Source: Tribonema minus
Taxonomy: Eukaryota; Sar; Xanthophyceae; Tribonematales; Tribonemataceae
Assembly: GCA_017506865.1 (NCBI GenBank)
Contig: JAFCMP010000079.1
Coordinates: 930,001-994,000 of the forward strand
Reading direction: 5' to 3'
Length of the DNA: 64,000 bases
In this document: positions 1 through 63,087 of the stretch, piece by piece
Numbering within the stretch: position 1 is the first letter of the stretch
How the letters are laid out: each line of letters opens with the position of its first letter
Translations under genes and position numbers: made by a program
Notes under the pieces: generated by a model
Databases searched by the model: none
Seen by the model: only the letters and a program-made list of their open reading frames with translations
What the model was told of the DNA's origin: nothing

Positions 1-3000
1 CTACTGCGAGTCGATCCTGGAGTTGATCCGTGCGCACCAGGTCGTCTTGGTCAGCGGCGAGACGGGCTGCGGCAAGAGCACGCAGGTGAACTGCTGCGGC
101 GATTCAGTTCTGGCGCGCGTGCATATGCACACGCTTGCGTCCTTGCCTATCGTACAGCGCTGTGAGTATGTAGACTGCGCAGCGCACTGCGGCGTTCGAG
201 ACCGTGGCACGCGTATAGGCAGCACGAGCGCGTTCTTGCCGATTGTACGGCTGCGGCAAGAGTACGCAGGTGATGCTGCGAGCTGCGGCGGTTGAGTTCC
301 GGCGCGCGCGCGTGTGCACATGCGTGCTCAATGTCATCTGCGTGAGCCCAGGACCAACTTCCAGTTGTAGCTGCTTGTGGAGTGGATAGATGGTTTTGTA
401 GTTCGTAGTGTGCGTCCCTGCCTGTCGTAAAACGCCGCGGGCTCGTAGGCGGCGCAGCGGACTGCGGCGTTCGAGTCCCTGACACGCCCGCGAAGTTGCA
501 GTCTCGCCCATTGTATGGCGTCAGTTGCGCAAGGTGACCTCCTCATGCAATGTGGACGGCTGTGCGCGCGCGCGCTGCCGCCTCTCGCGCGCATCTCTCC
601 TCGGGTGCCGTGTGACAAGGTAAGGCGCGCGCACCCGACACGTGTCCCTGCCGCCACCTGCCGCTGCCGCCGCGCCTCATTGCATCGCAAGGACGTCACC
701 TGCATGTCACCTGCGTGAAACTGACGCAACCACCGTGCTGTCGCACAGGTGCCGCAGTTCATCCACGACGACAATCGTGCAGGGGCCGCGTTGCATGATC
801 ACGTGCGCACAGCCGCGCCGCCTCTCCCTTGCTGCAACTCCCGTAACCGCGGCAACCGCCGTGCCGCCACCGCGCAGGTGCCGCAGTTTATCTTGGACAA
901 CGCCGCGCAGGGCGCGCGCTGCATGATCACGTGCACACAGCCTCGCCCCATCTCTTCAACTGCTGTAACCGCCGTAACCATTGCAACCGCCGCGCAGGTG
1001 CCACAGTTCATCCTGGACGACGCAGCGCAGGAGGCGCGCTGCACGACCGCGTGCGCGCAGCCGCGCCGCATCTTAACCGCTGTAACCGCCGTAACCGCCG
1101 CGCTGCTGAGCAGGTGCCGCAGTTCATCCTGGACGACGCCGCGCAGGGCGCGCGCTGCATGATCGCGTGCACGCAGCCGCGCCGCATCTCTGCCATCGCC
1201 GTCGCGGAGCGCATCGCGGAGGAGCGCTGCGAGGAGGCGGGCGCCGTCGTCGGCTACACGATCCGCCTCGAGAGCGCCATGAGCAGCAGCGTGCAGGTGG
1301 GCGGTGGGCATGCAGCGCGCTGAGCGCCAGCGTCGGGCGAGGTGACGGGTGTTGAACTTGGGCTGTTGTTGAACTTCAGCTGTTGATGTGGCGGCGTGCC
1401 GCGGATGTGTGTGTGTGTGTGGTCGCGTCGGTGGTGGAGAGCGCCGTCAGCGCTGGCATCAGGCGCTGTGTTGACCGGCGGTGTGCGGCCTGCGTGTGCT
1501 TGATAGTTCGATGTGAGACAGGCGTATTGACGCGACGTCGATCCGCATGTTGCAGGTACATTGGTAATGTTGTTCAATGACACGATGACCTGGGTGTGCT
1601 TGACATTACTACGTGAGACAGGCGTGTTGACGTAATAGCACTCCCCGCTCCCCGTGTTGCAGGTGCACTATGCACTGATCTGCTGTGCTTCTGACTGACA
1701 GCAAAAGTTGCTGTCTGATGAGGTACTGGGCTCATATCTGACATGTCATGTCGCGTAGTTGCATGTCATCTACGTGCTGGACCTCCTGTATGCTACTTCA
1801 AGGGGCATACTACAACCAGTTGCAGTTTGACACGTTCTGCACAACGATCAAGTCACATGCCCTGGTCTCATGCATTTTGTGCGCATGTTGCAACCTTCAT
1901 CGGCGCCACCGTGCGTCACGGGATTCTTCAGCATTTCACTGAAATGCGCTGCTAACTTCATTTTTCAACTTCACCTTTGCTGACGCCCCGCCGCAGCTGT
2001 GCATGATGACCCCCGGAGTACTGTTGAAGAAGCTGAACACCGACCCGATGCTGCAGCAGTACACGCACGTCATCATCGATGAGGTACGCAGCCCAGATTG
2101 GACATAGCCTGCGTGCCGCGCTGAGTTTCTTGTCAGTTTCATGAACTTGTCAACGAGAGCACCTGCGTGATTTGTCATGAGTCGCTGCAAAGTCATGTCT
2201 GGCCCTTGGCCAGGTTCAGCCGTTAGTGTGACAGTGCGCCGGACGCCTCGATCTGGAGACGCAAGTGCAACTTCAACTTTCCTGTCAAGTACAAACTTCA
2301 TAGGCAGTTGTGGGCTTGGTTTTGTGGCAGCCAAATCGTTTTTTCTGCGTCGAGGGGCCGCCATTGAGCGGCCCATGCTCGATATTGATTCCTGCTGCTC
2401 GCAACGACACATACCGTGTATACGGCAGTCCCGCTCCCGCGCTCGTGCGCTGTCCACGCCGCCGCGCTGCAGCGCGCCGGCGCCCAGCCCCCCCCCCCCC
2501 CCCCCCCTCGCCTCCACTTTGCATCGCTGCTCAACATGTGCGGCTGCATGAATGCGGCGGCACAACTTGCACTGCGCCACTCGCAGCCGCTGCTGCCAAG
2601 CACTGAGCACTGCTGCATTCACAATCACGGTCGCCCGCGTGCATCGTTTCGCGTGCCCCCCCGTCCTTACCTTTGCTGATGCCGTCGTCCCCCCCTCTCC
2701 CCCCCCCTGAAACCCCTGCTTGCCCCCCCTGCGTGCGGGTGCACAGGTCCACGAACGTGACAAGAGCACGGAGTTCCTGCTCATCGTGCTGCGCGACCTG
2801 CTGCCGCTGCGCCCCGAGCTCAAGGTCGTGCTCATGAGCGCGACGCTGCAGCAGGGCAAGTACGCAGCGTACTTTGGCGGCTGCCCCATCACCACCATCG
2901 GCGCGCGCACGTTCCCCGTGCAGGTGCGCAACTCCCGTGTGCCCCTCATGCTGTGGAAACGGGAATCGCATCGATGCGGGGCGCGGCGCTGCGCGGGTGC

Positions 3001-6000
3001 ACGTAACCGCTCCGAGGCGCCTGCGCTGAGCGCTGCTGTCACGCCGCGTCGCGACCGGGCTCGCTGCCTCCTATCGCCGCGCCATATGCGTGCACGATGA
3101 CATGCTGCAACCGCAGCGACCGCGCCATCACCGCTTGCGTAGCCGGCACGTGCGCACCATCCGCGCGCGCCGCGGCAGCGCAGCCACCGCCCTGTTGCCC
3201 ACTCGTCGCGCTCACGCGCCGCCCGCCCCCCCCCTCCCCTCTTACGACGGCAGGAGTTCTTCCTGGAGGACGTGCTCCTGCAGACGGGGTACCTGGACGG
3301 CGCGGAGGGCGCGCAGCAGCAGCGCTCAGCGGCGGGGCGCGCGGCTCAAGCGGGGGGCGCGCTGCCGTCGCTGCAGGAGCTCGCGGCGTCGCTCGCGGCG
3401 GGCGCGGCGCCGACGTTCGCGTGCGCGCTGTGTGGGCGCAGGGCGTTCCGCAGCGCGGAGGAGCTGGGGACGCACGTGGCCATGTGCTTCGGGGGGGAGG
3501 ATGCGGGGGGCGGCGGCGGCGCTGGCGCGACTGCGGTGAGGGTCGGCTGTTGCTCGCTGTGTTTCAAGTGGGAAGGTTGTCGAGGGGTGCAGGTATGGGT
3601 GTGTGCGTTGGGGGGGGTGGCGGCGACGGTGCTGGTGCAACTGCGGTGAGGAGGGGCGCGTATTGCCCCCCCTTACTTTGAGTATGAGCATTGTCGTAGC
3701 GCAGACTTCGGCAGCGCGAATGTGGTGATGCCGTGCGTGCATTCAGGGGGCCGGGGCACGCTGTGAAGCGTGGGCGCAGGCGATGCGAGCGTCAGACCGT
3801 CATCTGAGCGGTCCCGTGCTAGTGAGATGCGCGCCGGTGAGGCAGGCGGCGACGGCGCCCGCCGCAGAGTGCACGGGGGTACTGTGTACTGCACGTGGTG
3901 CTGTACCGCGCTCGTCGCAGGGTGCACGGGTGTACTGTGTACTGAGAGGCTATGTGTGCTGATCGTGCGTGACGGGGCAGTCGCGATGCACGCATGTGCA
4001 ATTGATGTTTGCAGCCGGCGCCAACCGCCGGTGCTGCGTGGAGCCGAGCTCGTTTGATTGATGTTGACACGCGTCCCTACACAGTTTATCTAGGTGTGTG
4101 GAGTCCTGAGACCGTCGCCTACCCATTAGTCCCAGCATAGATGTTGCGCTCTTGCACCACTGAGCATGGAACAGTCTCGCTCGCTGCAGCATACGCCGCC
4201 GTGGCGCCGTCGGTGAAGCACGCTTGACGCGCGCGGCCAGCCACTCCGGAAAGCAGCCCAGCCACTCCCGAAAGCACTCCCGAAAACACTCCCGAAAGCA
4301 CTGGAAAGCAGCCCAGCTACTCCCGAAAGCACCCGAAAGCAGCAGAGCCACTCCCAAAAGCGGTCGAGCCAGTGCCGAAACCAGTCCCGAAAGTCCCGAA
4401 AGCGGTCCCGAAAATCCCGAAAGCGGTCGGGCCACCCCGAAAGCAGTCCCGAAAGCAGTCGAGCCAGTCCCGAAAGCGGTCCCGAAAGCAGAAAGCAGTC
4501 GCGCCAGTCCCGAAAGCGGTCGGGCCACTCCCAAAAGCAGTCCCGAAAAGCCGAAAGCAGTCGGGCCACTCCGGAAAGCAGTCCCGAACAGCAGTCGAGC
4601 CAGTCCCGAAAGCAGTCCCAAAAGTCCCGAAGCGGTTGCGCCACTCCCGAAACCAGTCCCGAAAGCAGTCCCGAACGTCCCGAAAGCGGTCGGGACACCC
4701 CAAAAGCAGTCCCGAAAGCAGTCGAGCCAGTGCCGAAAGCAGGCCCGAAACTTGCATCACCGCTGCTGCGCTTCTTGCGTTTCTGCCAGTCAGATGCTGC
4801 GCTTTATGTTGCGGTCAGCTTGATGCCGTGATTCTCATCAAGCGTATCCATTCGCGTCGCGTGCATCGCTCGCCACAGCCGCTGCTGCTCAACGGCATAG
4901 AGCTGCCGCAGCAGGACTCAATCATGGAAGGCTACTGCGACGAGGACGCACTTCCGGAGGACAGTCCCGAGAACGCTTTGGAAGACCAGGAACCGTCTTC
5001 GGATCTGGCGCCGATCCTTGAGGACGAGGCTGATATAACGGCCGTTACAGGCGTCGTGCCGGCGAAGGTGGTCTGGGATGGCGTGGGCGCGTTCGGCATG
5101 CGCACGGCGGATCACCAGGTGCGCTGCGCGTATATACATACGGTATAGCCCAATTTGTCGGACATCGTGCACTTCAGGTACCTCGAACTGTGCAAGCTGG
5201 CTTCTTGTCAGCTTTGTTGCAATGCGGTACGGCAACCGCGCGTGTTGTTGGTCAAAGTTGCGAGGTCTCTCAATGAGATATTTCAAGTACTTCAGGTGCT
5301 TCTATGGTGATGCAGCACAGCACACTGCCACAGCTATAGCAGTCAAGGCTGTGCTCCTGGCCGATGAGCACTGCCACACCGGGCTCCTGTGTTGACCCCT
5401 CCGTCGCACATGAACCACCCCACCGCTGCTGTATCACCCTCTCGGCAGTCCGATTGACGTGCGTCCGTGTCCAGCAGTCGAGTGCTGCCGTACCGTGTCG
5501 AGCGCTGCCGTACCGTGTCAGCGCTCGACACTGTCTCAGCAATCGACCTTGCAGCCCGCACCTGATCTCAAGGCCGACTCCGTGCGCGCGGGGCGCCCGC
5601 CGCGCCGTGCAGCCGCTTATATGCCCACTTCAAATGTGACGTGCCTTGCGCCGTGCTCGGCGCCCACGCACTGCAATAGCCGCTTGTACATATACTTCAG
5701 CTGTGACATGCCTGCCCCGCGCTCGGCGCCCACGCACTTTCAGTAGTCTTCTACAGCCGCTCGTATGCCTACTTCAACTGTGACGCGCCTTGCGCCCACG
5801 CACCTCAACAGCCGCTCGTACGCATACTTCGACTGTGACATGCCCGCCCCCGCGCGCTACGCCCCATGCACTTTAACAGGCGGAAGACCTCCTGGCACGC
5901 TACCAATTCTCCTTCGACGACGAGATGGTCGACTACGACCTCATCGCGGCGCTGCTGCGCTACATCTGCGAGAGCGCGTACGAGGAGGTGAGGGGGGCGC

Positions 6001-9000
6001 TGAGCTGTGACCGCAGTCGCTACCGTATGTATACCTATTGCCCCACTACTGTAGCACTGCTCGGTTACAGTTGCCAGAGAGCGCATGCGTGGGAATAAGA
6101 GGGGTGACTCGGTGTGCCACGCCCACAGCCTCCGTCACGCGCGGCGCTGCTGCGCTGCGTCTGCGGGAACGCTTGTGAGGAGGTGAGGGGGCGCCGAGGG
6201 ACCGCATTCACTACCGTATGTATGGAAACGAATCAAAAGATCGTAGAGCTCACTTCAGTATGGCAGCAAGCGCTGCTCAGTAATGGCTGCGGGAGCGCGT
6301 GCGTGGGGATGTGCGGGGTGACGCGCTGTGGAGCGCCCCCCGCCTCCGTCGCGCGCGGCGCTGCTGCGTTACATGTGCGAGAGCGCGTACGAGGAGGTGA
6401 GGGGGGCGCTGAGCCGTGACCGCATTCGCTACCGTATGTATACCTATTGCCTCAGTACTGCAGCGCTGCTCAGGTGCGGGGACTGCGCGAGCGCATGCGC
6501 GTGTGGGGGTACGGAGGGGTGACGCGCTGTGGAACGCCCGTCGCCTCCGTCGTGCGCGGCGCTGCTCCGCTATGACTGCGAGAGGTGAGGGGGTGCTGAG
6601 CTGGTGACCGCAGTCACTGCGCATTGCCTCATTTCGGTGGCGCTGCCAGGTGTCTGTCTGCGTGGGAGCACGCGTGGGGGTACGGAGCGGCGACGTGCTG
6701 TGAGATGCCCATCGCCTCTGTTGCACGCGGCGCTGCTCCGCTGCGTTTGCGTTAGCGCGCTCGGCGAGGCCAGCAGCGCCGCGGCGTCACCGCAGTCTCT
6801 TTATCGCCTGCTCACTGCACAGCAGTGCTCCGCTACTTCATGTCTAAGTGCGTGCACCTACGCAAAGGGGGCGATGACCGCGCATGGCCTCGTCTTCAAC
6901 GCTGCTGCGTAGCGCTGCTGCATCTGCTATAACGACGCGCGCTTCGCCTCCGCATTGTGCAGCGCTGCTCCGCTACGTCTGTGAGAAAGATTGTGAGAAT
7001 GTGCAATGTCGTGCGTGGCAGCAACCGCGCAGATTGTCATGATGATGGGCTGTCTGATAATCTGTGTATCTCCAGCCTGCGTCTTCATCCTGCGCGGCTC
7101 TAGCTGAAGGCAGGTGAGGGTGGGGTCGAAAGCGCATTGAACTTCAATGGACGGCTCTTAGCGTCGAGATGCAAGTATGTAGCACTGGCATGCCTTGATG
7201 GTTTGCGCAAGCCGACGTCGCATGAAAGTGGGCCACACGCAGCGTTGCTCAGCAGCGTGTCAAGATCTTCTTATCTCTGCACCACATTGCGACGTCAGTG
7301 TCAGCGTTCGCGGCAGAGGTCAGGGTGAGGGTAAGAGTAGGATCAGGGTTAGGCACGCAGCGTTGCCCTGGGCGTTTCGACCACCGCAGCTGGCCAACAA
7401 ACAGACAAAATGCGAGTGAGCCACCATTTTCAGGCCAACTCACTCTCTGAACACGTCCCTCCTCTGTGTGCAGGGCGCGGTGCTGGTGTTTCTGCCCGGC
7501 TGGGATGACATAACGCGGCAGACGGACTGCCTCCAGCGCCACCCGTACTTTGCGGGGCAGCAGCTGCGCTTCCGCATACTTCAACTGCACAGGTACACTT
7601 GAAGTTTCACATCGACAGCAGCAGCAGCGCAGTCGCATGCTTCGGCCACACAGGCACGTGCATAGCGCGCGCGCGTACTCGTATACTTCTAAGTCGCTGT
7701 CGCAAGCGCGCGACGGAGCGGCCGCTTCATGCCGGCTGCGGCGCGCAGCACAGCGGCGCAGGTGTGCTGACTGCCGTACGCAGTGCGGCGTGTAGAGCAA
7801 CAGGTGTTTGATGTGTGTCAACTGCGCAGACACCCGGCGCGCTTTGCAGACGGTAGAGATGAGCGCTGCTGCACACTGCTGAGCGCTGTTGCGAACCGCT
7901 GAGCACGCTGTTGTGAACTGCTGAGCACTGCTGTGCAACACCGGCGATCCCGGCGGATTGCAACAGTGATAGTGCTTTACGTCACACATATGTACAGGAG
8001 CGGCAGAAACGCTGTCATCAGGCATCCGCAGCCCTGCCTCACTCGTCCCGCCGCGGCGCGCTGGCGGCACGCACAGTTCCGCAGCAGCGCCCACTGGTGT
8101 TTGCCAGTTGCCATGCATGTGACGCGACCCAAATCGCGCCAAACCCTGCAGAGCGGCACTCCTCAACTGCATACACCGCAGCTGCGCAGCGCGCCTCTCC
8201 GCAGCCCACCCGCTGACAGACCCCCTCCCCCCCTCCTCCTTGCAACCCCCCCCCCACCCCCCCTCAAATAGCGGCGTGCCCACCAAGCGGCAGCGCGAGG
8301 TGTTCGTGCGGCCGCCGCCGGGCGTGCGCAAGATCATCCTGTCGACCAACATCGCAGAGACGTCGGTGACGATCGACGACGTGGCGTTTGTGGTCGACAG
8401 CGGCCGCGCCAAGGAGCAGTCGTACGACCCCCACCTCAAGCTCAAGACGCTCGTGCCGCAGTGGGTCAGCAAGGCCAGGTGAGGGGGGGCGAGCGGGGTG
8501 CCGGGGGCGGCGGGGGGGGGGGGGGGGTAGATTGACAAGTCATGCTGGGCGTTGTGCACACACAGAGCTGAGGCTGCCTGCGATGACGCCCTCTGCGGCG
8601 TGCAGGGGGCGCGTGCGTCTCCGCGCCGCTGCCGCGACAGACGGGCCAGTGTGCGGAGTGGTGGGTCACAATACAGGTCGATGGAGGTCCGACGCTCGCT
8701 GCCACCTGCGGTTCAGCATGCACAGTGCGAGGGTGAGGGCTAGTATTAGGCCATGCTCAGCATCACACAGCGCCATGATCGCTGATGCCCGTTACCGCCT
8801 GGCCCCCGCGTCGCCGCCGCACGCAGCGCCAAGGTCGCATGATTTTGTAGGGTTGGTCCTTATGAGTTGGTCATGAGCTGGGGCTAATGCCGAGCATCCA
8901 CACACGTGCCGTGACCGCTGTCGTTCTGAGGCAGCTCCCCCCCCTCCCTTCCCCCTTCCTTGTGCGCCGCCGCACGCAGCGCCAAGCAGCGCTTTCACAT

Positions 9001-12000
9001 GCTTTTCAGCTAGAAGAGGGTCACGTTGAGTGTTCGAGGAAGTTAGGGGTTGCAACAAATTGAGGTCATGCTGAGCGTTTGCCACCCGCCCCCGCATCGC
9101 CGCCGCACGCAGCGCCAAGCAGCGCTAGAGGCGCGCGTGCCGCAGGCGTGCCGCCACACATTCCTCAACGTGCAGACGGCTAACGTTGGGGTGCACACTG
9201 TGCATCACACAGCGCCATGACTGCTGATGCCCATTGCCCCCCCCCCCCTCCCCCTTCCTTGCGCGCAGCGCCAAGCAGCGCAAGGGGCGCGCGGGCCGCA
9301 CCAAGGCCGGCGTGTGCTTCCACCTGTTCAGCGCACGCAGGCACGGCGCGCTGCGCGACCACCGCGAGAGCGAGCTGCTGTGCTCGCCGCTCGAGGAGCT
9401 GTGCCTGCAGGCAAAGGTGAGCATGCGTGCCTGCCGAGATGTCATGATCTGCATTGCGCGGGCCTGAGAGCAGCTGAATGGCTTTGTTGCAGAGTGCTCG
9501 CGAGGGGAGCTGATATCGCAAATGGCATGGCTCTGTGAATAAGCCAAGGTGAGCGCGCACGCGCTAGCACACGTCCAGCGACGATTGCAAGGCAATTTGA
9601 CTTGATGATGTGCGTATGGGTGACACTGACAACTGGACTCTGTGGAAGCTTTGTGGAGACATGACAAATGGCTCGAGCGCAGGCTGGTAGGCTGGCCCCC
9701 CTCACATTGCGAGTGGCTTCGCTTTGTGCATGTACTCGAGGGTAGAACACCGGGCCCACAGCACGTGCACGTGTGTTTGCGCACTGTGGCCTCCGATCAA
9801 TTCAGCAGAGAGACTGGTGTCTTGTGTTTCGACCGCCTTGTGCTGTAGCTCTGGCTTCATGTTCTAGCGCAGCCTGACAGAGTCACGTGAGACGTGTTGT
9901 GGCTTCCTCAATGTACTCACGGAGCGAACAAGGGGACCATCGCAAGTGCATGAGTGTTTGTAAACCGTGCCCTCTGACCACTGCGGCAGGGAGTCCGGGA
10001 AACAAACTTATCCATAAAGCTCTGGGTTTGCTGCTGCGCCGGCTGCAGCGTCACCTGCACCGAGCTGTCTACTAGTAGCCCCGCGCATCCCACCACCATC
10101 ACGACACAACACACTCACACTGATGCTGCTTTGTCAGCAGCGGCGTAGTGCTTCCGTAGCACTTCCGCTTGTGATTTGTGTGCACGCTCTGTCGTGCCGC
10201 AAACTAAGTACATGCGTTTTACTGTGTGTGCACTCTGCATTGCCCCCCTCCCCCTCCCCCAGGTCATGGGTCTCGCACAGGGGGCACCCGGCGAGCCGGA
10301 CTCCATCGCAGCGTTCCTCGGCAAGGCCATGGACCCCCCACACAGGCAAGTGCTGCTTTTGAATTGCACACCTGAGGGTCCCCCTCCAGTACCTCTGACC
10401 CTCATAAACTTCAACCTGAAGATCATCATCGCTTCAACTCAGCATGTGTCACCACATGTTACACGCGCTCGTCAAGCGCGTGGGCACTGCTCAAGAGGTA
10501 CTGTACTGGAATTTGCTCGCGACATGCCTGCCTCGTGCGGCAACGTCAACTGCTACTCCCGCTAGCAGCGCATCCGAGCTCAGTCACAGCAGCTCATCAG
10601 GCCTGTGGGCACTGCTCAACAGATGCGCAAATTCATGACGCCCACAAAGCATCGTCCCGGCTCCCCCCGCCTCAACTGCAATTCTTATTTGCTCTTACTG
10701 CCACCAGAAATACCAAGTTATACCGTGCCACTGCAGTTCTGCGCCCTGTACTGTACTATACCGCAACCACATGACCCCCTCTCCCCAGCCATGCATCCAC
10801 TCCCCCCCCCCCCCCCCCCCCCTGTCCCACCCCCCGCAGCCTCTCCGGGTGCGTGTCTGGTTGTGCTGGCCTGTGTGAAGCAACACGCGCTGCCGCTCTA
10901 CTCAGGACCCCATGTGAAAACCATGTGTTCTCAGCGCCCCCCCCCCCCCCGTCCCACCCCCCACAGCCTCTCTGTGCGCAACGCGGTGGAGCTGCTCCAG
11001 AGCATCGGCGCGCTGGACGAGCGCGAGGGCGTGACGGACCTGGGCGCGCGCCTCGCGCAGCTGAGCGTTGACCCGCGCGTCGGCAAGATGATGCTCTGGG
11101 CGTACATGCTGGGCTGCGCGGGGACGGCGGTCGCCGTGGCGTGCGCCATGAGCTACAAGGTGAGGGGGGGGGGCAGGGGGGGCGTTGCTGAGCACTGCTG
11201 CAGTTCTCTCTACCAGGAAAGTATTATTAGCGGTGTCCGCGGCATTGAGCTACAAGCTGGGACGGGCTGGGACGGGGGGGGCGCGTGTCGCTGAGCGCTG
11301 GTGCAGTGCTGTCGCAGCGGTGTGTTTCACTGTCCTTCTGCAGCATTTCAGCGGTCCCAGCACCGTGTCACAATCTGACGACGAAAGCCGGTCGTCCGCT
11401 GCTGCTGACCCGCCCTGCATGTGCCCCCCCCCCCCCCCCCCCCTGCTCCCCCCTTTTTTGCAACCAAGGACCCCTTCGTACTGCCCATGAGCGCAGCGCA
11501 GAAGCGGGAGGCGAAGGCCGCCAAGCTCGCGCTAGCCAGCGGCGCCGAGAGCGACCTCGTGGCGCTGCTCAGGGCCATGGAGGGCTACGCGAGCGCGCGG
11601 CGCGGCGGCGGCGGCCACGGCGCCGCGCACGCATTCGCCGACAGGAACTTCCTTTCGGCGAACACCCTCGGCATGGTGGTGGACATCACGCATCAGGCAA
11701 GTTGCAGTTGAAGTTGATCCGCCAGTTTTTATATGTTGCGATAAGCTGGCGTTGTTGCTGGTTTCGGACACGGCGCCGCGCACATGTTTGCCAACAGGAA
11801 CTTCCTGTCTGCGAACACCCTCGGCATGGTTGTGGACATCACGCATCAGGCAAGAGGGGAGGCGTTGTAGCTGAAGTCAACACGTTGTGTTGTCTGCATG
11901 GCAATGGAAACTGGTGCTGTTTGGTGTGTGTGCGGGCATGGTGGTGGACATCTCGCACCAGGCGAGGGAGGCGGTGTATAGCTGACGTTGAAACTTGCAT

Positions 12001-15000
12001 TTTTCGAATCGTGGGGGAGGCTGGCGCTGCTGGTGTGTGGGGACGCGGCGTGGTCGCTTGCGAGTGCTGCAGCAGCGCACGTCAGCGATCGGTGTCGCTG
12101 CCGTGTCTGTTGACCTCGCTGCGTGTGCGCGCGCGCCGCGTCTGCATCGTTGAAGGCCTCCAGAAGACGTGTTGCAGGTTATGATCGCATTCAGTGCAGA
12201 AAAAGAAGCTCATACCATCGCCTTTTTATCTGCGACCCACTATGTTGCCAGCCGGCCGGTATGCCCCCTGTCCAATAGATGGCCCTCTGCCCTGCGGCAT
12301 CGGCAGGAAAACGAATGGCACGCGCTCGGCTTGTCACTTTTCGAGGCCCCGCTAGCAATCTTGCCGGAGTTCTGCCGCCGCTGCTGGCCGCACACTATCG
12401 CCACAACTTCTGCTCTAGAGTACTTCACTAGGCATAACCTCAACACGCTTACCCTTGTCTGCCTGCACTGCAACCGCATGACCCCCCCCCCCCCACGCAC
12501 ACACATACACACACAGTATGCGTGAGCCACGATAATGCGAGCAGGGGTAGCAGCCCAAACATGCACTCGCTGCGCTGTCTACCCCCCCCCCCCCCCCTCA
12601 CACACACACACAGACACAGTTGACGACGTGAGCCGCGATCATGCTCCCACCCTTACCACAAGCCCCCCTCCCCCCCCCCCCCCCCCCAGATTGGCCGTGA
12701 GCTGCAGTCACTGGGCCTGCCACTGCCGACCTCACCAGGCCCCGCCAACGCCAACGCCGGCGATCTCTCGCTGCTGGCCAGCGTGCTGTGCGCAGGGCTG
12801 TACCCCAACGTCGCGCACCGCGGCCCGGGTGCGACAAACTTCAGGACGCTGGGTGAGTGTTGTTGAAGTTGTGCTGCGTGCGGCGGGGTTGAAGGGCGTC
12901 TGCTACGGCGGCGCGGCGGCGGCCGTGTGTTCAGTTGCGTATAGTGAAACTGCCGGTGTAGGGAGTCCGGATGTGCTGTGCCGCTGTTTTTGCCTGCGTT
13001 CGCGGCACCTCAGGACGCTGGGTGAGGGTTATTGAAGCTGTGCTGCGTGCGGCGAGTGACAAGGGCGTCTCCTATGGCGGCGCAGCGGCGGTTGTGTGTT
13101 CGGTTGTGTGTGGAGAAAGAACCCTGGTATGGAATACAAATGAAAAACGAATCAAAAAGATCGTTGAGCTCTAAGTGACAAGGGATGGTTAGCCGCAAGT
13201 CCCTTCCCAACAAATGTCATATGCCGCTTTCTGTGCACAGCGTGCGTTTTCCAGGGGCGGCAGCTGGCCTGTATGCGCGGCCCGCCCCCGCTTCTTCAAC
13301 CGCCGTCCCTGCATCCTGCATCCATACCTGCAGTACTAATACTGCGCAAAGGCAGCCAGCTCTCGGGACAGCAGGTTCTGCTAGCTACGGCGCTTGTGCT
13401 GTGCCCGTTGGCGCTAGCCATGTCCACTGCCACATCGGCAGGTGCACGGTGCGCAAGGGGGTCAACAGCATGACGACGGAGGCGTGTCACTTGCCCTCGG
13501 GATTAGGGCTAGGGTTACCCAAATGACTTGACGCCCGATGCAACGCTCCAGGCGTCTCCATAGCCCTCACCATAACCCTATCTCCAAGGGCTCGCTTTGG
13601 CAGCCCGCCCGTCCCCCGTCGCTCATTCACCCCAGACGCACCGCTCAGCCTCTGCCGTCGTAAAATTGGCTTTGGTTGGGCTTCGTGTCATCTGCTGTCA
13701 AGGTACCAGTAATATCATTTCATATTTGGTGATCGCCGCGTTTGTTGTCAGTCGCTGTCAAAGCACCAGTATCACCATTTCATATTTGACGTACCGCTGC
13801 GCCTTACCTTTAGGCGGACACCTGACCAAGGTCCACCAGAGCTCCGTCAACAGCGGCAGGGGGCAGCGCCTAAGCGAGCCTGCGGACTTGCGCGGCAGCG
13901 GCGACTTCGTCGCGTTCGGCGAGATCACCCGGAACGCTCAGCTCTTTGTCATGAGCAACACGACGCCCGTGCCGGCGCTGGCGCTGCTGCTGCTGTGCGG
14001 CAACGTGACGGCGGCGGCGCGCGGGGGGGACGAGGGGGAGGGGGACGGGGAGGGGGGGGATGACGCGCAGGAGGAGGTCAGTGTACGCTGTACTGCGGTG
14101 AACTCGCGTTGGACTCGCGTTGGATGCGGTCAGAGCACTGTGTGTAGTGCACTGTGGTGCAATGGAATGCGGGTCGAAGGAGGTTGTACGCATGCCGGGC
14201 GTGCTGTCATCAGCGTGTGTTGCGTGGCAGTGATCGCATGCAGTGCGGCGCGTAACGGCGGCGTGCGCGCAAGGCACTGGCATTGCCCGCCACCGCGTCA
14301 ACGCAATTAGGATGGCGGCGGCAACAGGGTTCGAGCGATCTGAGGCACTAAGGCATCACAGGACCGTCCCGCAATGACAGCGGTGCTGCCGCCGTCCAGC
14401 TCTGAGTGTAGGGGAAGGCATGTGATGAGGCCGTTGTGCGCCAGATGAGGTAATCGGCCACTGTTTTCTGCGGCTTTTGCGCCGGCGGCGATGTGTTAAG
14501 CTCGCTCGCGCCTTACACAGCATGCGACAGTATTCACGACTGCTGGTGGCACCTTTGCTGGCGCTACGGCACATGTGCGCTCTGTCCACCAGCTTTCAAG
14601 TGCACCTCGCATACAGTGCCATCTCTTGGGGGCCGTTGCCATCGCTCAGCCGCTGCTGCTGACCACGCCCTCAGCGCTGAAATTGTAGCCCATGCCAAGC
14701 GGAGCGCTGCCACTGACCCATGTGAGCATTCAGCACACCAGCGTCTGCTGTCTTCGCGCCTGCAACTCTCACTCACAGACACATCCATATGCACATGCCT
14801 CGCCGTGCCGTGCAGCCGCCCGAGCTGGTGCTCACGCTCGACGACTGCGTGTCGCTGGCGGCGCCGCGGCAGCTGGGCGAGCGGCTGCTGGTGCTGCGCC
14901 AGCGGCTGCACAGGGCGTTTGCGACGCGCGTTCGCGCGCCCGCGCGGTCGCTCGGCGCGGCGTACGACGACACCGTCAGGTGCGAGTTGCAGCGCGCTGC

Positions 15001-16261: not shown

Positions 16262-18348
16262 TCATGGCAGCGCGCCGGTGCGTCCGTGTTGTGCTTGAAG
16301 TTGTGCACATGTACAAAGCAGACGAATGAGAGAATGGAGCAGATAGTTATGGGGTGTGTGCGCCGCGTCAAAACATTGCTGTGAAAGGTCGCCGGCAGGT
16401 GTCGCACGTGCAAGTCACAACGCGGAGCCTGTGTAGTGCAGGGAGCATATTTTGTAGATGTTTACAAGGTCGTGTTATGCACAGCAGCGGTTTTTAATCC
16501 CCCCCGCTATTGTGTAAGATAATGTGCGTGCGTCGGCCACGGTCTTGCGAAGCGTGACGCGTTGACGCCACTGCGGCTGCAGAGGTGTCTTGGCGTGAAG
16601 CAGAGCACGGTGCGTCTGCACGGGTCACAGCACACCTTGCTTTCCACCTGTCATGCGCGTGTGCGCAGGACCCGCGCGCCACAGCTGACAATCCCTTCGT
16701 TTTGTTCTCGTGTTTCTGCTTGTGCAACACCAGCACCAGCATCGGCAGCAAAACTGCACCGCCATCAGCAACGAAGGCGACGCTGAAGCAGTCAGCGCCG
16801 CTGCCAGCGTGGCCATGGCGACATCAACCGGCGGCATATGCAGCACATTGCTGCAACAGGAGTCATCACCTCACGCGCTCAAGACGGCGGTGCCCCAGCT
16901 AGGCGATCGGCACATCATCACATCAGTGCTGGCAGCAGGAGACAGCGCCTACGGAACAGCAGACAGCGCCGGCGGCAATGGCACGACTACGCCGCATGAC
17001 AGCCGCAGCGCTCGCGCCGTGTCAGTGGCAAAGTTGTGAGGCATGCTGCTGCGGGTGGCAGTGGCAGCACGGCTACGCGCTTGCTGATGGCAGTGATTAA
17101 GATGCAGCCCTCGCTGCTCGCGCTGACCATCACAGCGCGCTGGTGCCACAACAGTGACTTCGCCCCAACACGAGCAGTCGTCGCATGATGCGTACACGCC
17201 TCTGTGAGAGACGCTCAGGGGGGCAGTTAGAGGGGTCTACTCTGCTCAGCGCCGAGTGCCACTTAAAACAGCGATCGATTGTACACAGTCTCGTTCTCGT
17301 GGTACATGCACAATTGCGGCCTGTTGGCAGTGAGATAAATGCGGCCGTCACCGCTGCATGTGCTAGCATTGCGACACGCAGTGTCATGTTCTACACCATT
17401 CTGCGCCGATGACGCAGAGCGTTGCGTCCAATCTGTAAGTATGCGCGTGTAGCAGAGTGTGCTGCAGTCATCGCCCCCCATTTGGTGTTGCAACTTGGCA
17501 TTGGCATAGACGCGTGAGTGACACAGTGACACCCGTCAGATGCCGCATGCTCTCGGCAAACGTGGTGGTCCGTCAATGTCCGAGGGCTGCAATGATCATG
17601 TAATGTATGCCTCGTCGTACTTTAAATCGTGCACCTCCGCGTTGCAGCGCCATCATAAATGCAGCTCCTGGCGTACAGTACAACAAACACTGCAGTACTG
17701 CCTCCGCAGCAGATGATCAGCAAGCGCCTGAAGCCGCGTAGCATTCTTGCTCTGCCGCAAAAGCACTGATTGGATTAAAATGATCTCGTGACGTGCACTG
17801 CTGGCCGCTGTCTGTCAAGCTCATTGCCACTTTCACATTCAGGGTGCCAGCAGTGTTGACTCAATGGCGGATTTGACTTCACCACCTCACTCAATGGTGA
17901 CTTTTTTGAGGTGCAACCTGCATCAAGCGCGCTCTTTAGGCACCTGTAGTACACAGACTTGGTGATGTAGTGAGAGGCAAGTGCTCATGACACAAAACCC
18001 TTCATCTCAGACAGGTTGCAAACACTGATGTGCATTGCATAGAGTCACCAACGACGAATTGCAGTCAAAGCACACGCTTGTTTACACAAATCTTCAAGGA
18101 GAGAAGTCAGGCGAGGCGCGTTATTTGCCAGCATGGTCCATGTGTTCTATTAACCCTGTATCAATGGAGCAGGACCTCCCTGGCATGCGCTGTGTGATCC
18201 CCAAACGAAGCAGAAACCTCTCGCCGGTCATCAACACGTATGCGACCCTCAACGTTCAAATGCACATCAACGATGCACCTTACTCCGGTAGACAAAATCT
18301 CCGGTCAAAAATGAGCATGCGTATGTTTGGCAGTAGCGACCGAGCGCG
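16262..18348. other. Convergent intergenic region, helicase / COX15
   Basis: Holds the 3' ends of two convergent genes. Short frames exist (for example a Ser/Ala/Thr-rich one at 16710-17039) but none has splice or homology support. No RNA gene or mobile element is seen. Confidence 0.6.
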
Positions 18349-35655: not shown

Positions 35656-35706
<51 letters not shown>

Positions 35707-49900: not shown

Positions 49901-52900
49901 GGCCTACTGGTAGCACTCTTGGATGCGGACAGAAGTGCCATCAGTATTCTGCGCCCTCAAGCGCATACGCAGAAGGAACTGGGGTCGCGCATCTACGGCG
50001 AGCACAAGCAGCACTCCGTAGGGCACAGATCAGGGCTTCGATCAGGGCAGATTAGGTCAAGGTTTGCAAGAAGGGTTGGGGCTGGGGTGCGTGGCTGAGT
50101 TCGAGTTTCAAGTCAGGGTTTGGGCCCTAGCATCCGCACGGCATGCTTAATTTCACGCGCCACTCACCACAGCAGGTCATCGTCGCCAGCGTTCGCGTAC
50201 CACACGTAACCGCTCCCGTCGACCGCCTTGTCGTTGTTCGCGTCCTTGAACTTGGCGCCGCAGTAGTAGTTGGTGGCAGCGTCCGCATCAACGAGCGCCG
50301 CCACCTGCGCGAACGTCAGCGGCAGCGCCAGCGCGTGCCCCGCGTCCGTCGCCGGGTCGTAGCACTTCGTGGCATCCACGGGGTAGCTGGCGGCGGACGC
50401 GTCGCGCACCGACGCAAGCATGGCGCTCAAGTTGTTGAGCGCTGTCGTGTACAGCGGCAGCGTGTTGGTCACCGTCGCCCACCGGAAGTTCGCCGTCTGC
50501 AGGTACTCTGTCTCGAACAGCGCCGCCTGGGGGCGGCGGCGGCGGCGGCAGCAGCAGTGGCGGTGGCGCAGTGAGCAACTGGCAGCGCAGCGTGGACACA
50601 CGTGCATTTTGGGGTTAGGGTTAGGGTTAGGGTTAGTGTTGCGGCTCTGTACGCCACCTTCTGCGGTTGTGCAGGTCCTTGCCCCCAGCAGTGAGACGTG
50701 GCTTGAAGTGTTTTTCGGGTGCATTCCCCAAGTCAGGTAGCACTTCAGGTAATGAGGTGCTCATGCTGGGGGGGCGTGTTGTGCCGATGGTTCATGAGCC
50801 TGATAGGAGTTGGGTTCAAGACATGATGACACCACTGCACCATAGGACCGACTCGGGAGTTGAAACGTATGCGCCATGTGACGTGCGGGATACCCAAGTA
50901 CGCAACGGTTGTGTGCAGAGCATTAGGACATGTGCGCTCCGCCGCAAAGAGCAAGCAACACGCTGACCATTGCAGTCTTCCGCATACCAACCGGTTGTGC
51001 CGATTTGGTCAGGTGCAACAAACCAGGTCATCGGTGCCCACACCTGTGCGCTGCTGCTGCTGTGCGCCCAGACGCTGCCCACGCAGCTCATGTCGGTGCC
51101 TGTGCAACGCTCACGCCGCACAAAGACCAAGACGCGTATTTCATACAAATGCCGAGATGCGTTGCTCTACTGTAATGTTGTGCAGGTACCGAAATGCGTT
51201 GAATCGAGAACACCCGGGCGCACGCTGGACGCTTCCCCCCACAATGACCATATAAAAAGAAACAGTCGGCATGCATGACCCCAGTGGGCAAACCCCTGCA
51301 GCATGCCTGATGCCGTCCGATCGGCACACGCGGCAACAAAGCAGCCATGCAGCCCTTTCGCTTCAGGCGCGGTCGGTAACATTGTGGGCAGAGTGCGATT
51401 CACTCCCAGGCGCTGCTGCTGAGCCGCTGACACCCGCTCCACATGCACGCCGAAATTGCTGTGGCACAGCTCGCGCTGCCGCTCCCGCGCACGCTCAGAG
51501 AAGATGGCCTCAGAACTAGGGTTATAACTGTAGGGTTAGGTCGAGGGCCTCACCTGCTGGACATTGTCGCGATCAAACGGCTCGGGCGGCAGCTGCGCGA
51601 GCCGTGCGTCGAGCGCCGCCGTGGCAGTGGCCCCCACATACTGCGCCCTCGCCCCCGTGTACGCATAGGGGTCGAGCTGGTCAAGCTGCGTGGTGATGTC
51701 CGCCGTGCTCGTGATGATGCTCAGAATGGTGGGCGCCAGGCCGGTGACGGTGCCGCTGGCGTCGGTCAGCGGGCCTGTCGCGACGCGCACACAGGCGGCG
51801 GGGGAGGTGTGTGGGTGCGCAGCGGCGGCGGCGGCGCCGAGCACTGATTCTGAGTCTGGAGCGGCGGCGGCGGCGCGTCCGTCCCGCGTGCGGCTCACGA
51901 TCGCGCATGGCAAAGGTGTGTAGATAGGAGTGGCGTGGTGCCGTACACGCGTTTGAAACTAAACTACATACATCCAGGGGCGCTTGCTGTGGCGTGGCGC
52001 AGCGAGCGCTCAGTGTGCGTGCGATGGAAACACTCGTCGTGTGGCTGTCGACTTGAGAGCCGCGGCACCAGCAGCGCAGGCCCTCGAGTGCTAGTTGCGC
52101 CGGGCGGGGCCAGATAGCTCACACCAGACCCCGCACCAGCACCCGCTGCAGGGGCAGAAACTTCCGTGGAGGACACCTGCGGTGTGCATGCAGGGCAGGG
52201 TCCTGCTCCACATGGCACTGCACAAGCCTTCCCGCCTCCTTCATCACCGCTTGATCGCTCCAGGGCCTCGGTCACGACATCCCTGCATATCTTGTAGACT
52301 AGGCAACTCGGCCGATGCATTTTTTTAAAAAACAAATTTTCGGTGCACAGTCTCGCAAGAGGTTAGCCCAGAGTCGCGTCATGTCGCCGCAGGAGGCAGT
52401 GGACGCATGACAGCGCTCCGTCGCGACGCGCGCTCCGCAGAGCGCGCTAGCGCGGTACCGCACCGCCAGCGCCCAGAGGACCGCCGTACAGGGGGACCAG
52501 GCGTAGAGGGGGTGCCTTGTGCAAGCCCCTGGGAGAGCCGGCAGTGTGGCAGATCGCACCTCCTGCTGACAGGGCAGCCAAAGCGTGTCAGGCGCAGCTG
52601 CAGTAGAGGCGATAGCCGGCAGACACAGTTTGGTGCATGCGCGCGCACGCGCAGCGCTCGCCGCACCTGACATGTCAAACGCCTCGCCGATCCCAAAGAT
52701 GTCCACCAGGTTGTTGGTGGCGGTGGGGGCCTCGGGGTACACGCCGGTGCACTCGAGCGCGCCCACGATGCCGACGCCAAGCGGCGTGGATGTCACGCCG
52801 CGCACCGGCACCGTGACGTCCAGGTTGGTCACGATGATCTCCTTGTGCTGCGCGCCAACGCAATTAACAGGACAGCGAATGGAATGTCAGACTCGGCGCG

Positions 52901-55900
52901 CGTGCGTGGGCTCTTGCCCTACTGCGGCCGCGCGCGCCACAGCTGATGACAATCATATGTTGCCATCGTGGGCTCTTGCCCTGCTGCGGCCGCGCGCGCC
53001 ACAGCTAATGACAATCATATGTTGCCGCGTCGAGGCAAGGCATTGAGCATGAGGTAGGGCTAGGGCTACGCCACGAGGGCAGCGCCAAGCGGCGCAGATG
53101 TCACGCCGCGCACCGGCACCGTGGCGTCCAGGTTGGTCACGATGATGTCCTCGTGCTGCGCGCCGCCGGCCGCAGCAACTGAAACAAGAGCGAACGGGCG
53201 TCAGACTCGGCGCGCGCGCGTGAGCTCTCGACTGCTGCAGCCGCGCGCGCCACAGGATGTGATGATCGTATGTGCCGTGTCGAGGCATTGCGCATGATTT
53301 GAATTTAGGGTTACGGTGAGGGTTAGGGTTTGGGTTTGGGTTCGTGTTGGGCGTTACGCGCCCGCCGCCGCTTATCCACACGGGTGCCATGGAGGCTGCT
53401 TGGGCTGCAGATCGAGGCTGCGGAACCGTCAAGGGTGCGCTGGCGGCATCAGCAAGTGCTTGCTGTGCTGCAGTGCGGCCGTTTAGATGTGTGCGCGTGT
53501 GTAGGCTTACACGGCAGGGGTTCAACGATTGAAGAAGGGGGGGGCGCTCAGGGGGAGGGGGAGACCTGGCGCTGAGCACTGAGACCTTACTGCGGTAGGA
53601 CCGCCTACGGTGACCATCCCTGAATCTCATGATAATTGTGCTCTGGCTGGACTTGCCCGCAAGCAGCATTGCCGTGCGAGGATTGGGGCTTGCCTCTGTC
53701 CCAAGACGAGATGCACCCGGAGCGCGACCAAACGCGCACATGCGCCGAGCAGCAAACATGTAGTATACGCAGCGCACGCAGGGAGCGCCACATGGCCTAC
53801 ATCACGCGCGTGCCAGTACCACAGCGCCTTAGGTTGGCAGGCCAGGGCGAGAGTGGCCGGCCAAGGATTACTATTAGGGGTAACAGCCACACATGCACCC
53901 GCTGCGCCTTCTCCAATCTGCCTCCCCTCCCTCCCCCCATCAGATGAGGCCACCATTGATGCACCGAGCGCCAAAGCAAGCGACTCCCCTCTCCCCTCCG
54001 CCCCCCCCCCCCCCCCCCCCGCGGCCTCAGCTCACCACGAACCTGACCCTTGCGCTTACCCCCGGCACTCCCCCTCTCTCACCTGCTTGCACACGTCGCC
54101 GTTGAGCTTCATGAGCAGCAGCGCGAGGCCCGCGACGAGGCAGAACGCGCCCTGCGTCCAGTACCCGAACGCCATGCCCAGGTAGAAGGGCTTGGGCGTG
54201 CGGCACAGCCCCGCGCACGCCGCTGTTGCCAGCAGCACGAGCCCGGGTAGCAGCACGATGCCGGAAACGGCGAGAACGCCCGTGCTGAAGTGGCGCGATA
54301 CGGTGTCGTACGCGGTTTCGGCGGGACCGGTTTGGAAGGCGTACACGCGCGCGGACGCGTTGACGATGCGCGTGCTGAGCGCTGACGTCGCGGCAAGCGC
54401 CGCGCCGCGCAGGTCGGGGCCGCCGAGCTCGTTGTTCTGCATAGGAGAGAAGGGGGGGGGGGCGTTCAATGGCGCAACGGTGACTGGCGCGTCCGTGCAA
54501 ACATGGACTTTTGCCTTTGTTGTTGTGTTCTTGCTCCTGTGCAGCAGGCTGTTGAGATGATCACACGACGCGACCCCTCTGTCAAGCCTCCGAGCGACAG
54601 TCAGAGCCAGTGCGCTTGAGAGCGCTGAGGTGACGGACGGCGGCACAGGGTATAATGCCCTCACAGCCCATGCTGCTCCCTCCGTGCGAGGCCGTTTTCC
54701 GTCAGAACCAGGGCTAGCTAACCCAGGCCTAAACCTAACCCTAGCCCTGAGGCACTGCGCGCACCTCGCCACCACCAGCAGCAGCAGCGCGCGCACCTGC
54801 TTGTTGTCCAGCTGATACCAGGACCAGGGCTAAGTAACCCTAGCCTAAACCTAACCCTAACCCCAGCTTTGCGCCGCGGCACGCGCCCCCGCCGCCGCCG
54901 CGCCGTTGCCGCCAGCAGCAGCAGCGCTCGCACGCACCTTCACAAGTCCAGCTGGTACCAGAACCAGGGCTAAGTAGCCCTAGCCTGAACCTAACTCTGA
55001 CCATGAGCCACTGCACCGCGGCGCGCCCCCCCTGCCGTCGCTGCGCCCTCGCCAGCAGCAGCGCTCGTACGCACCTTCACATCGTCCAGCTGATACCAGA
55101 ACCAGGGCTAACTAACCCTAGCCTAAAGCTAACCCTGACCCTGAAGCACTGCGCCGCAGCCGCCGCCGCGCCGCCATTACCGTGTGCACCTTCACATCGT
55201 CCAGCTGGTACCAGACCTAGGGCTAAGTAACCCTAGCCCAAACCAAACGTTACCACCGGCATCGCGCCGCGGCGCTTCCCCCCCCCCCGCCGCCGCGCCG
55301 TCGCCAGCAGCAGCGCTCAACGCACCTTCACATCGTCGAGCTGGTACGACAGGCGCATGAGGTCCGACGTCGGCGATACCATGATGTCGTACGTCGTCTG
55401 ATTTGCGGCCTGCGTCGCCGCCGCCGTCGCGCCGATGGTGACGGCGTCCGCCGCGACGCGCAGCTCGTCGTCGGCGGTCACGTTGGGGACCGCAAAGGTG
55501 AAGTCGTAGCGCGCGTAGGTGGCGAAGAAATCGGTCCAGTTCCCCGCGTATGTGCCGATGTCGGGGATCAGCGTGGCCTCCGTCGCCTGCGCGCGCGCGT
55601 GCGGCGGCGGCAGCAGGGGGGTAATCGAGAGCGGCCCTTTGCGTTGGGGTGCGTCAGGGGTAGCGCGAACATGAGCTACAAGGGTTTTGCAGACAGCATG
55701 CCTGTGTCAGGGGTAGGGTGAGCACGAGGTGCTTTAATAAAGGTTTGCAGAGGACACGCCTGCGCATGTGCAACTGCGACGCTGCACTTCCGCCGCCACA
55801 TGAGGCAGACGCGAGCGCTCAAGTTGGCGAAGGATACATACCGGTTCCCGATAGCAAGCTGTATGTCCACATCTGGGCCTTTACCACGCCCTCAGCGACA

Positions 55901-60900: not shown

Positions 60901-63087
60901 TCGATCATGGCGCTCGCTTTGAGCTCCGTCTCCGCCTCCTCTGCCGCTGGATCCGAGTCATACAGCAGCGTGGCTCCTGCGCGCACCTGTGTATGAGGAG
61001 TACAATGGTGACAATGGTCAGAGGTGAATGAAAGATATCTGTCTGCCAAAGTACAAGTATGCAGCAAAACAGAACTACAAATCATTGTACACTCAGGCTC
61101 CAGTGCGCACCTGTGCAGGGAGGGGGCCAGACAGAGTTATCACTGTGCGTGAGTGAGGTGCACAAACTACCCGCTCTGCCGAAACAACGGCATACGTGTA
61201 CTCAAGGGCATACTTCATCTTGAAGCACTGAATGTTGCAGACGGTGCATGACGCTGGCAGACTGACGGCGACAACGCGGTGCCGCAACTTGGCGATACCA
61301 AGTAGACAATACAACAGCGCAGCTATTTGTGGGTCACGGCTGCGCCGCTCGCGCCCCGCGCCGCGCCGTGTGCACAGGAAGCAGCAGCGTCACAACTGAA
61401 GCAGACCCACGCCACAGCGTAGCTATGCGCGCCACCGCCGCTCAGCCTTCACAAGCAGGAATGTCATGAAGGGAAGCAGACCGCGCACCGCAACACCGCA
61501 AGCCGCTGCTGTGTGACGCGCGCGCGCGCGCCCCCTCAAAACAGAAACTTCAACTCCATGTTGAACAAAAACTCAAATGTTGGTGCTGGTTAACTTAATC
61601 CTGATCACACCAACTTCAACGGCCAGCCACCCCCACCTGCGCGACGCCGCGCAGCACACGCACCGTGCGCAGCGTGAGCCCTGGGCCTGCTGCTATCTTA
61701 CAAGCATGCACATGATCTCTCGCGCCAACGTCTGCGCCTCCGCCCCGTGTCTGACAAAGACGAAGCCGCAAACAAAATGCGCACTGTTGGTGAACACCAA
61801 CTTCAATCGTCAGCCACTCACCTGCGCGACGCCGCGCAGCACGCGCACCGTGCGCAGCGTGAGACCCGTGTTGAGGTGGCCGTCGCAGCCCACCACGCCG
61901 ACGGCGCCGCCGTACCACGCGCGCGCACTCGCCTCGTGTACTTGGTAACGCCGAAACCGCAGACGAAAGTGCGCACTGTTCGTGACCACCAACACTTCAA
62001 CTGTCAGCCACCCACCTGCGCGACGCCGCGCAGCACGCGCACCGTGCGCAGCGTGAGCCCCGTGTTGAGGTGGCCGTCGAAGCCAACCACGCCGCCGTAC
62101 CACGCGCGCGCGCACGCCTCGTGTACTTGGTAAAGACGAAACCGCAGACAAAAGTGCGCACTGTTCGTGACCACCAACACTTCAACTGTCGCTCACCTGC
62201 GCGACGCCGCGCAGCACGCGCACCGTGCGCAGCGTGAGCCCCGTGTTGAGGTGGCCGTCGAAGCCGACGACGCCGACGGCGCCGCCGTACCACGCGCGCG
62301 CGCTCGCCTCGTGGCGCTCGATGAACTGTATCGCCCACGTCTTGGGCGCGCCCGTGACGGTGACGGCCCACGTGTGGCAGAGGAACGCGTCGAGGGCGTC
62401 AAAGCCGGGGCGCAGGTAGCCCTCCACGTGGTCCACCGTGTGGATGAGCTTGGAGTACATCTCGATCTGGCGCCGCCCGAGGACGCGCACGCTGCCTGCA
62501 GGGGGAGCAAGGGGGGGGGGGGGGGGGGGCGGGTACACAGGGGGGGAACGGGCACATCAGGGGGGCGTGGGGGGTCAGCGGCAGTACGGGGACAGCAGCA
62601 GGAGCAAGGGGGGGGTAGGAGTGGCAGGTTGCGTGCATCTGCCTCGCAGATGGAGGCGCCGCTGGGCTAACGCGGCGCTCTGTGAATCTGCACGCTGGAA
62701 TCGTGGGTATCGCAGCGTCCACCCCCCCTGCAGCGCTGTCAACGTGGGAAGGAGGGGGGGGCGTCACTCTTGTCTCATGCCGCAAGATTCACAAGGAGCA
62801 CATGACTGCTGCACACAGAGCAATGCCTGATACTGTCTGTGGAGCAGGCGCAGGTCGCCGCTCACGTTCTGAGCACTGACATAGGGGCCCTAATCATGAC
62901 CAAACCCTAATCCTAGCGTCAGCAGTCGGGGCTGCGCGTCAGCGCTCACCGGGCTCGCAGATGCGGCTCTTGTCGTTGCGGTCCACGTCCGTGCACATGG
63001 TGAGCTCGCTCTCCTCCTTGGGGCTCGCCAGCAGCGCGCGCACGGCGGCGGCGTCCTCCAGCGCATTGGCGCCGCGCGCGATGGTGC
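57926..63087 (-). CDS. trpEG: Anthranilate synthase, fused TrpE-TrpG type, 5'-partial in window
   Basis: Makes anthranilate from chorismate and glutamine, the first step of tryptophan synthesis. Exons in transcript order: 63087-62950, 62495-62197, 60986-60865, 60329-60257, 59675-59433, 59029-58895, 58144-57926 (TGA). The N-terminal third of TrpE lies beyond the window. TrpE part: [99 protein letters not shown] short linker leads to the TrpG amidotransferase: [32 protein letters not shown], nucleophile Cys in [24 protein letters not shown], and His/Glu in QFHPESI. The residues match the single-chain form known from rhizobia and some cyanobacteria and algae, rather than separate TrpE and TrpG chains. 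Plastid location is expected but the targeting sequence is not in view. Confidence 0.92.
60107..60123. repeat. TA microsatellite
   Basis: About eight TA units within the TrpG intron, next to the exon ending 60257. Confidence 0.85.
61085..61130 (-). repeat. Upstream copy of acceptor and start of TrpE exon 60986-60865
   Basis: On the minus strand CTGCACAG followed by GTGCGCACTGGAGCCTG (exon-copy start 61112) matches CACACAG and GTGCGCGCAGGAGCCACG at the real exon. The copy hits a stop after five codons. Confidence 0.75.
61634..62140 (-). repeat. Three downstream copies of the end of a TrpE exon with donor
   Basis: The true exon ends at 62197 ([15 protein letters not shown], then GTGAGC). Its last about 115 nt recur with donor at 62014-62125 and 61821-61943, and the last about 45 nt at 61637-61680, spaced 183-195 nt, with the intron string AGTGCGCACTGTTCGTGACC between. 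Confidence 0.93.

Follow-up and report, generated by a model that had tools for sequence, protein, structure and literature searches.

Why should introns carry, over and over, the ends of the exons that border them? This question is raised by a 64 kb stretch of the genome of Tribonema minus (Xanthophyceae; GenBank assembly GCA_017506865.1, contig JAFCMP010000079.1, C79:930001-994000), referred to here as the window, in which a first-pass annotation had reported exon ends duplicated with their splice sites inside the adjoining introns at 17 or more junctions, 17 of them listed, and had attributed this to a general process acting on splice junctions. Intron growth and gain are usually ascribed to transposons or to rare single duplications. 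Duplications falling repeatedly on junctions would amount to parallel natural experiments, confronting true splice sites with near-identical copies nearby, and such a genome also bears on whether gene structure shapes the placement of duplications. Here we show that the copies form tandem structures, that these lie on junctions in excess of a null model that already allows for tolerance, and that the copies decay without coding constraint.

Results

Exon ends recur head to tail within introns of the window

Each listed junction was examined with a query of 90 nt of exon and 40 nt of intron, which was aligned to the 1000 nt that follow it toward the intron and compared with 60 shuffles. In this junction-centred alignment, 14/17 junctions had one to four extra intronic copies carrying both exon sequence and the splice site, with identities of 0.73-0.98 and scores of 43-210, against shuffle maxima of 25-36. 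They comprise eight donors (86, 3536, 5988, 11697, 12853, 25304, 55325 and 62196) and six acceptors (1113, 9268, 10966, 40935, 44611 and 52848). The three others did not hold: at 14980 and 5879 an essentially intronic array merely abuts the junction, and at 60987 no copy was found in the 1000 nt searched. The GC donor at 11697 is duplicated along with its exon end, as GT donors are.

Self-BLAST, our means of detecting local direct repeats, revealed 16 arrays in the window, 13 of them at or against the listed junctions. Their periods span 62-195 nt, where 70-230 nt had first been given for the units. No window junction has more than four extra copies (found at 5988), although up to five had been claimed. 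Both these arrays and those at the kinase loci described below consist of head-to-tail copies of one local unit; in TrpE, for instance, inspection of the sequence shows exon ends recurring in succession, with GTG(A/G)G after each.

The sample comprised the window and 250 kb more of the same genome (158 Mb in 554 contigs), that is, 314 kb on 11 contigs or ~0.2% of the genome; eight kinase loci, picked by homology around Pfam kinase exons, were added to it. On contig C20, a piece of a light-harvesting protein agrees with PDB chain 9m4f_8, 'light-harvesting protein XLH8', at all aligned residues apart from XXX filler; XLH is a name used for xanthophytes, and the match thus points to a probable yellow-green algal source such as Tribonema minus. 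When 13 spacers were searched against the 314 kb, they matched only themselves or their own gene, and no element was found shared by many genes. The arrays do not look like a mobile element, which supports the first-pass annotation on this point. One 2 kb piece, compared with the whole genome, gave its own locus, the arrays within it and two weak hits. Assembly error, which that annotation had named as what could undo its reading, is unlikely because the copies differ by ~9-16% and by many indels.

Arrays straddle junctions more often than tolerated placement predicts

The sample holds 81 arrays. Genes were modelled with an ab initio finder that used GT donors only and no transcripts, each array having first been collapsed to one unit, since the copies are then unable to create exons. 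Arrays mislead gene finders because their copies resemble exons: before collapsing, three TrpE copies had been called as such. The null placed units of the same length at random within 1.5 kb, with exons barred unless the unit crossed a single junction, and it superseded a uniform-placement null that gave a bigger excess. Arrays inside exons, or spanning a whole exon or several, were excluded from these counts (6/81 at exon score 8; 4/81 at 12 or 20), and the main figures are those at exon score 12.

Under this local null, 47/77 arrays straddle a junction where 19.5 are expected, a ratio of 2.41 (cluster-bootstrap 95% interval 1.96-2.93). The enrichment at junctions that the first-pass annotation had expected is thus present, and array position is not independent of gene structure, as it would be for a minisatellite. 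The excess is seen in the window (10/16 against 4.2 expected), in the rest of C79 (6/12 against 2.9) and on the other contigs (31/49 against 12.5), and alternative exon thresholds or distances gave 44-47 straddling arrays of 75-77, with 14.2-22.3 expected. Part of it comes from one DOCK-like gene on contig C5, in which all 19 arrays straddle a junction (8.7 expected); leaving this gene out, the count is 28/58 against 11.6. The idea of a general process at junctions consequently stands in that several contigs are affected, and fails in that the arrays are not confined to junctions, 30/81 touching no called exon. Coding starts and stops, a splice-free comparison limited to four ends, had copies at 0/4.

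Could a plain background produce this pattern? If tandem duplication were uniform, purifying selection on exons and the longer detectability of exon copies would make junctions stand out, and the tolerated-placement null alone indeed yields 19.5 junction events in 77, and 8.7 in 19 in the DOCK-like gene. Exonic copies do stay recognisable longer, diverging from the exon by 9.1%, against 16.0% for the intronic part. Because constrained exon sequence keeps copies visible in this way, we masked the called exons and restricted the count to arrays that the remaining DNA sufficed to reveal; 35/62 then straddled a junction against 16.7 expected (z 5.7), and 32/65 against 13.4 at a stricter exon threshold. 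The persistence of the excess under masking, the bootstrap interval and the fact that exonic edges shun the far half of the exon all argue against such a background, which we consider unlikely.

Copies are widespread and unevenly distributed

Across the 314 kb, a copy of the exon end lies next to 44/346 supported junctions. Control queries, up to 346 of each kind with self-draws and introns of <=30 nt skipped, gave 0 when the exon end of another junction was used and 3 when the same end was reverse-complemented. At the kinase loci, where no gene finder was involved, exon-end copies occur in the flanking DNA at 8/24 ends of 12 core exons, in 4/8 loci; one of them begins 16 nt inside the core edge.

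Density is uneven, with copies at 21/48 junctions of the DOCK-like gene against 23/298 elsewhere, and with 0 arrays detected by self-BLAST in 10 kb of contig C40. The DOCK-like gene corresponds to the pieces L027, L018 and L026 (C5:190001-220000). In L018, at ~6330-6740 (16330-16736 in joined C5 coordinates), a 406 nt intron holds copies of both flanking exon borders in gene order: the end of the upstream exon comes first and the start of the downstream exon last, with a short intron-like stretch between them.

Units are short and reach a small way into one exon

The array period is below 200 nt in 77/81 cases (median 144). In the 47 junction units the exonic part has a median of 55 nt (17-104, 5-95%) and the intronic part one of 86 nt (31-146). 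The junction-reaching copy nearest to the true junction lies 149-185 nt away at 23/35 junctions, and less than 200 nt away at 34/35; this limit and this peak resemble the size of the nucleosome repeat or of Okazaki fragments. Donors (29) and acceptors (21) are both affected, and the arrays that touch no called exon have periods similar to those of the rest (Mann-Whitney p 0.25).

The splice context differs as well: the exon continues with GT after 9/21 array acceptors against 25/159 others, and AG precedes 21/28 array donors against 72/150, a contrast partly confounded in that gene-model error also depresses the non-array figure. An AG|GT context is what would be expected if the arrays were young introns, gained in the manner proposed by Rogers through tandem duplication of exon segments containing AGGT. 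The signature of such a gain, an intron start resembling the downstream exon start or an intron end resembling the upstream exon end at a distance of the intron length, was found in only 1/133 introns with supported flanks, and we regard this origin as scarcely credible.

The same observations can be read as the work of a mechanism aimed at splice junctions, coupled to transcription, splicing or exon-positioned nucleosomes, which would copy the junction region into the intron. It would fit the junction excess with and without exon masking, the clustering of the nearest copies at nucleosome-like distances, the copies that stop a few nucleotides from the splice site and share no intron past that point, and the stronger AG|GT context at array junctions, with the reservation on gene-model error just given. 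Against it are the 30/81 arrays that touch no called exon and yet have similar periods, and the involvement of donors and acceptors alike, so that no single splicing step fits; we find such a mechanism improbable.

The copies decay, and protein homology points to use of the outermost sites in two genes

Copies differ from one another by 12.2% in the exonic part and 18.3% in the intronic part. By eye, copies in the multi-copy arrays do not seem to be more divergent the deeper they lie in the intron. Between exon and copy, the differences by codon position are 0.072/0.065/0.137, an excess at third positions that the exon's own constrained drift explains. Substitutions private to a copy are spread nearly evenly over positions 1/2/3 (62/57/75). 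The exonic parts carry 75 indels per 4785 columns, of which 67 are not a multiple of 3, and the intronic parts, counted only where the extension is >=30 nt, carry 98 per 2851 columns; this ~2x rate is as expected if, of the two lineages compared in the exonic part, just one can change freely. With mostly frame-breaking indels and near-even private substitutions, the copies do not look translated, and the possibility that they are coding is not supported.

A function could also be sought for the copies, which selection might maintain as alternative exon ends or as splicing decoys. GT/AG is retained in 101/112 copies, a figure near the estimated expectation for site-by-site decay, the exonic parts are ~92% identical where the intron is not shared, and the copy-to-copy differences have a third-position excess, all of which could be taken as signs of constraint. 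The frame-breaking indels, the private substitutions, the even distribution of periods modulo 3 (16/17/18) and the fate of the inner donors of TrpE, given next, speak to the contrary, and we think a function of this kind very unlikely.

In TrpE, exons joined via the outermost sites read seamlessly and match PF00425, residues 2-121 falling on positions 138-257 (120 on 120), whereas each of the three inner donors that were tried leads to one and the same stop. In MsrA, the same joining gives NDLGTQ|YRGGVYY, with the PF01625 match extending across the junction (1-100 on 32-133). As judged from these predicted proteins, the outer sites are the ones used in both genes. That the real site is always the outermost one, as the first-pass annotation put it, is no sign of a junction-specific process; it is the logical outcome of contiguous tandem duplication, where the exon stays whole in the outer copy alone, so that the outermost real site is forced.

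Pfam bears out that exons beside arrays are genuine. Among 20 single exons in this position, six had Pfam matches above the cut-off (PF01625 MsrA, PF00425 TrpE, PF00398, PF11838, PF00232 and PF06414). Four more fell below it, with E up to 0.01 (PF20422 DHR-2; P-loop families, for a helicase exon; PF03639 and PF17652 of GH81), and ten had no Pfam match.

Features of the window

The coordinates of the arrays and junction copies are collected in Table 1.

Table 1. Arrays and junction copies in the window (window positions).
Feature	Positions	Strand	Observation
Array, donor 86, DEAH-helicase-like gene	65..487	+	One copy; matched unit 21 nt exon + 37 nt intron
Array, acceptor 1113, DEAH-helicase-like gene	716..1191	+	Three extra copies, <=78 nt exon
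Donor 3536	3505..3652	+	One weak copy, 31 nt exon + 6 nt intron, identity 0.86; not a BLAST array
Array near acceptor 5879	5610..5874	+	Ends 5 nt upstream of the acceptor; without exon sequence
Array, donor 5988	5945..6751	+	Four extra copies, 43 nt exon
Acceptor 9268	8937..9300	+	Two copies, 22-32 nt exon + 32-35 nt intron
Acceptor 10966	10809..10972	+	One copy; exon part only 6 nt
GC donor 11697 (CAG|GCAAGT)	11612..11967	+	Two copies, 85 and 27 nt exon
Array, donor 12853	12838..13118	+	One copy; exon part only 15 nt
Array, donor 14980	14976..15220	+	Begins 4 nt before the donor; essentially intronic; junction test without match above score 40
Array, donor 25304, large gene at 22.9-36 kb	25267..25591	+	Three extra copies, period 73, 37 nt exon
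Array, acceptor 40935, MsrA-containing gene	40681..41042	+	One copy, 107 nt exon
Array, acceptor 44611, MsrA exon (PF01625)	44344..44664	+	One copy, 53 nt exon
Array, acceptor 52848	52763..53287	-	One copy, 85 nt exon + 9 nt intron
Array, donor 55325	54703..55347	-	Three extra copies, 22 nt exon
Array, donor 62196, TrpE (chorismate-binding) gene	61607..62313	-	Three extra copies, 117 nt exon, period 187

At 57942-63087 on the minus strand, an anthranilate synthase, TrpE exons stand directly upstream of exons recognised by eye as a TrpG-like glutamine amidotransferase, and the two sets are possibly one fused gene, as the gene model would have it. At 40936-44924 on the plus strand, a FKBP/SlyD-like domain, seen by eye and with no Pfam match, precedes MsrA in one gene model. 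Away from any called junction, a minisatellite of CCCGAAAGCAGTC-like units occupies 4239-4750 inside the helicase-like gene model. Short telomere-like runs of TTAGGG/CCCTAA occur at 47113-47150 and 50612-50640, and also in introns of the DOCK-like gene (L027/L018). A scan of the window with Rfam at gathering cut-offs gave 0 matches.

Discussion

The explanation that we favour, at odds of about one in two, is that short tandem duplication is frequent in this genome, that events internal to exons are purged, and that placement is biased toward segments with one end in an exon. Short segments, nearly always of less than 200 nt, would often be tandemly duplicated in genic DNA. Duplications within exons would be lost because they break the protein, while those straddling a donor or an acceptor would be tolerated, the outer copy preserving both exon and splice site; the extra exon end and the extra splice site would then fall in the intron and be spliced out. 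The copies would subsequently decay as unused DNA, and further rounds would enlarge the arrays. To this tolerance would be added a placement bias, ~2.4-fold, toward segments ending in an exon near its border, perhaps because exonic DNA is a favoured breakpoint zone, for example for chromatin-sized replication or repair units. Exon definition may be what keeps the inner sites silent.

Several observations weigh against this explanation: (i) The exonic edge lies past 0.565 of the exon in 1/47 arrays against 21% expected; a uniform process predicts otherwise. (ii) The GC content of the units equals the intron background (0.544/0.552/0.553), by which GC-driven duplication is also ruled out as the driver. 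(iii) 25/66 junction-reaching copies have no significant homology past the splice site, and exonic identity is no lower in copies whose intron extension is <=12 nt (0.918, n=20) than in those with >30 nt (0.913, n=36), a combination not predicted by simple duplication with equal decay. The copies without shared intron would be accounted for if the exon had converted them, or if copying had been restricted to the exon end. (iv) Compared over all pairs, copies differ from each other by 0.106/0.104/0.155 at the three codon positions, a third-position excess that may have been inherited from the exon if the copies were born at different times. (v) The outermost site, said to be always the real one, is retained by the gene model in 45/50 arrays, and the inner side in 5/50. 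(vi) The gene models are themselves approximate: they miss 12853 and 11697, the latter because only GT donors were modelled, and they fuse 47.4-63.6 kb into one model. The description of five unrelated genes on both strands otherwise fits, the split between a membrane-protein gene and TrpE in that region being made by eye.

It is also conceivable, if doubtful, that this lineage has a process by which duplication is physically directed at the borders of exons and introns, the agents being exon-positioned nucleosomes, Okazaki-fragment-sized units, or transcription and splicing, and that introns are lengthened by dead junctions. The earlier interpretation is partly supported.

How do these arrays compare with known systems? 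A tandem duplication across an exon-intron boundary has been described in the RdRp gene of potato (Ma, Lan and Niu 2016, PMC4974935). The duplication there likewise crosses the boundary and carries the splice signals along; it was, however, one event, which gave a new intron, whereas here there are dozens, often multi-copy and at donors as well as acceptors, and the old splice sites remain in use in the two genes tested. A single junction-crossing duplication was thus already known, and the genome-wide, junction-biased case was not found described in the openly licensed PMC literature searched, a scope outside which most subscription papers fall. In the main text of a paper on Ectocarpus repeats (PMC12477816), the term 'exon-intron' is absent. 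Duan et al. (2024, PMC10809524) described, in human genes, introns in tandem repeats along with dual-specific splice sites; splice sites are there likewise borne by repeats, with AGGT motifs within introns, but the intron length there is a multiple of the surrounding repeat, while here the repeats sit at the intron edge and reach into one exon.

The intron gain proposed by Rogers also starts from a segment with AG|GT that is repeated in tandem; here the duplicated segment is part intron, and the signature appears in one intron of 133. Internal gene duplication has reportedly been treated by Gao and Lynch. Introners are 100-200 nt in size. They share a genic location with our arrays and have been tied to nucleosome linkers (Gozashti et al. 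2022, PMC9860276), but they consist of one element in many genes, whereas each unit examined here belongs to a single gene. Ordinary minisatellites, finally, are likewise built in tandem from units of 60-200 nt, and they too diverge and expand; what sets the present arrays apart is a location tied to exon borders beyond what random placement would give.

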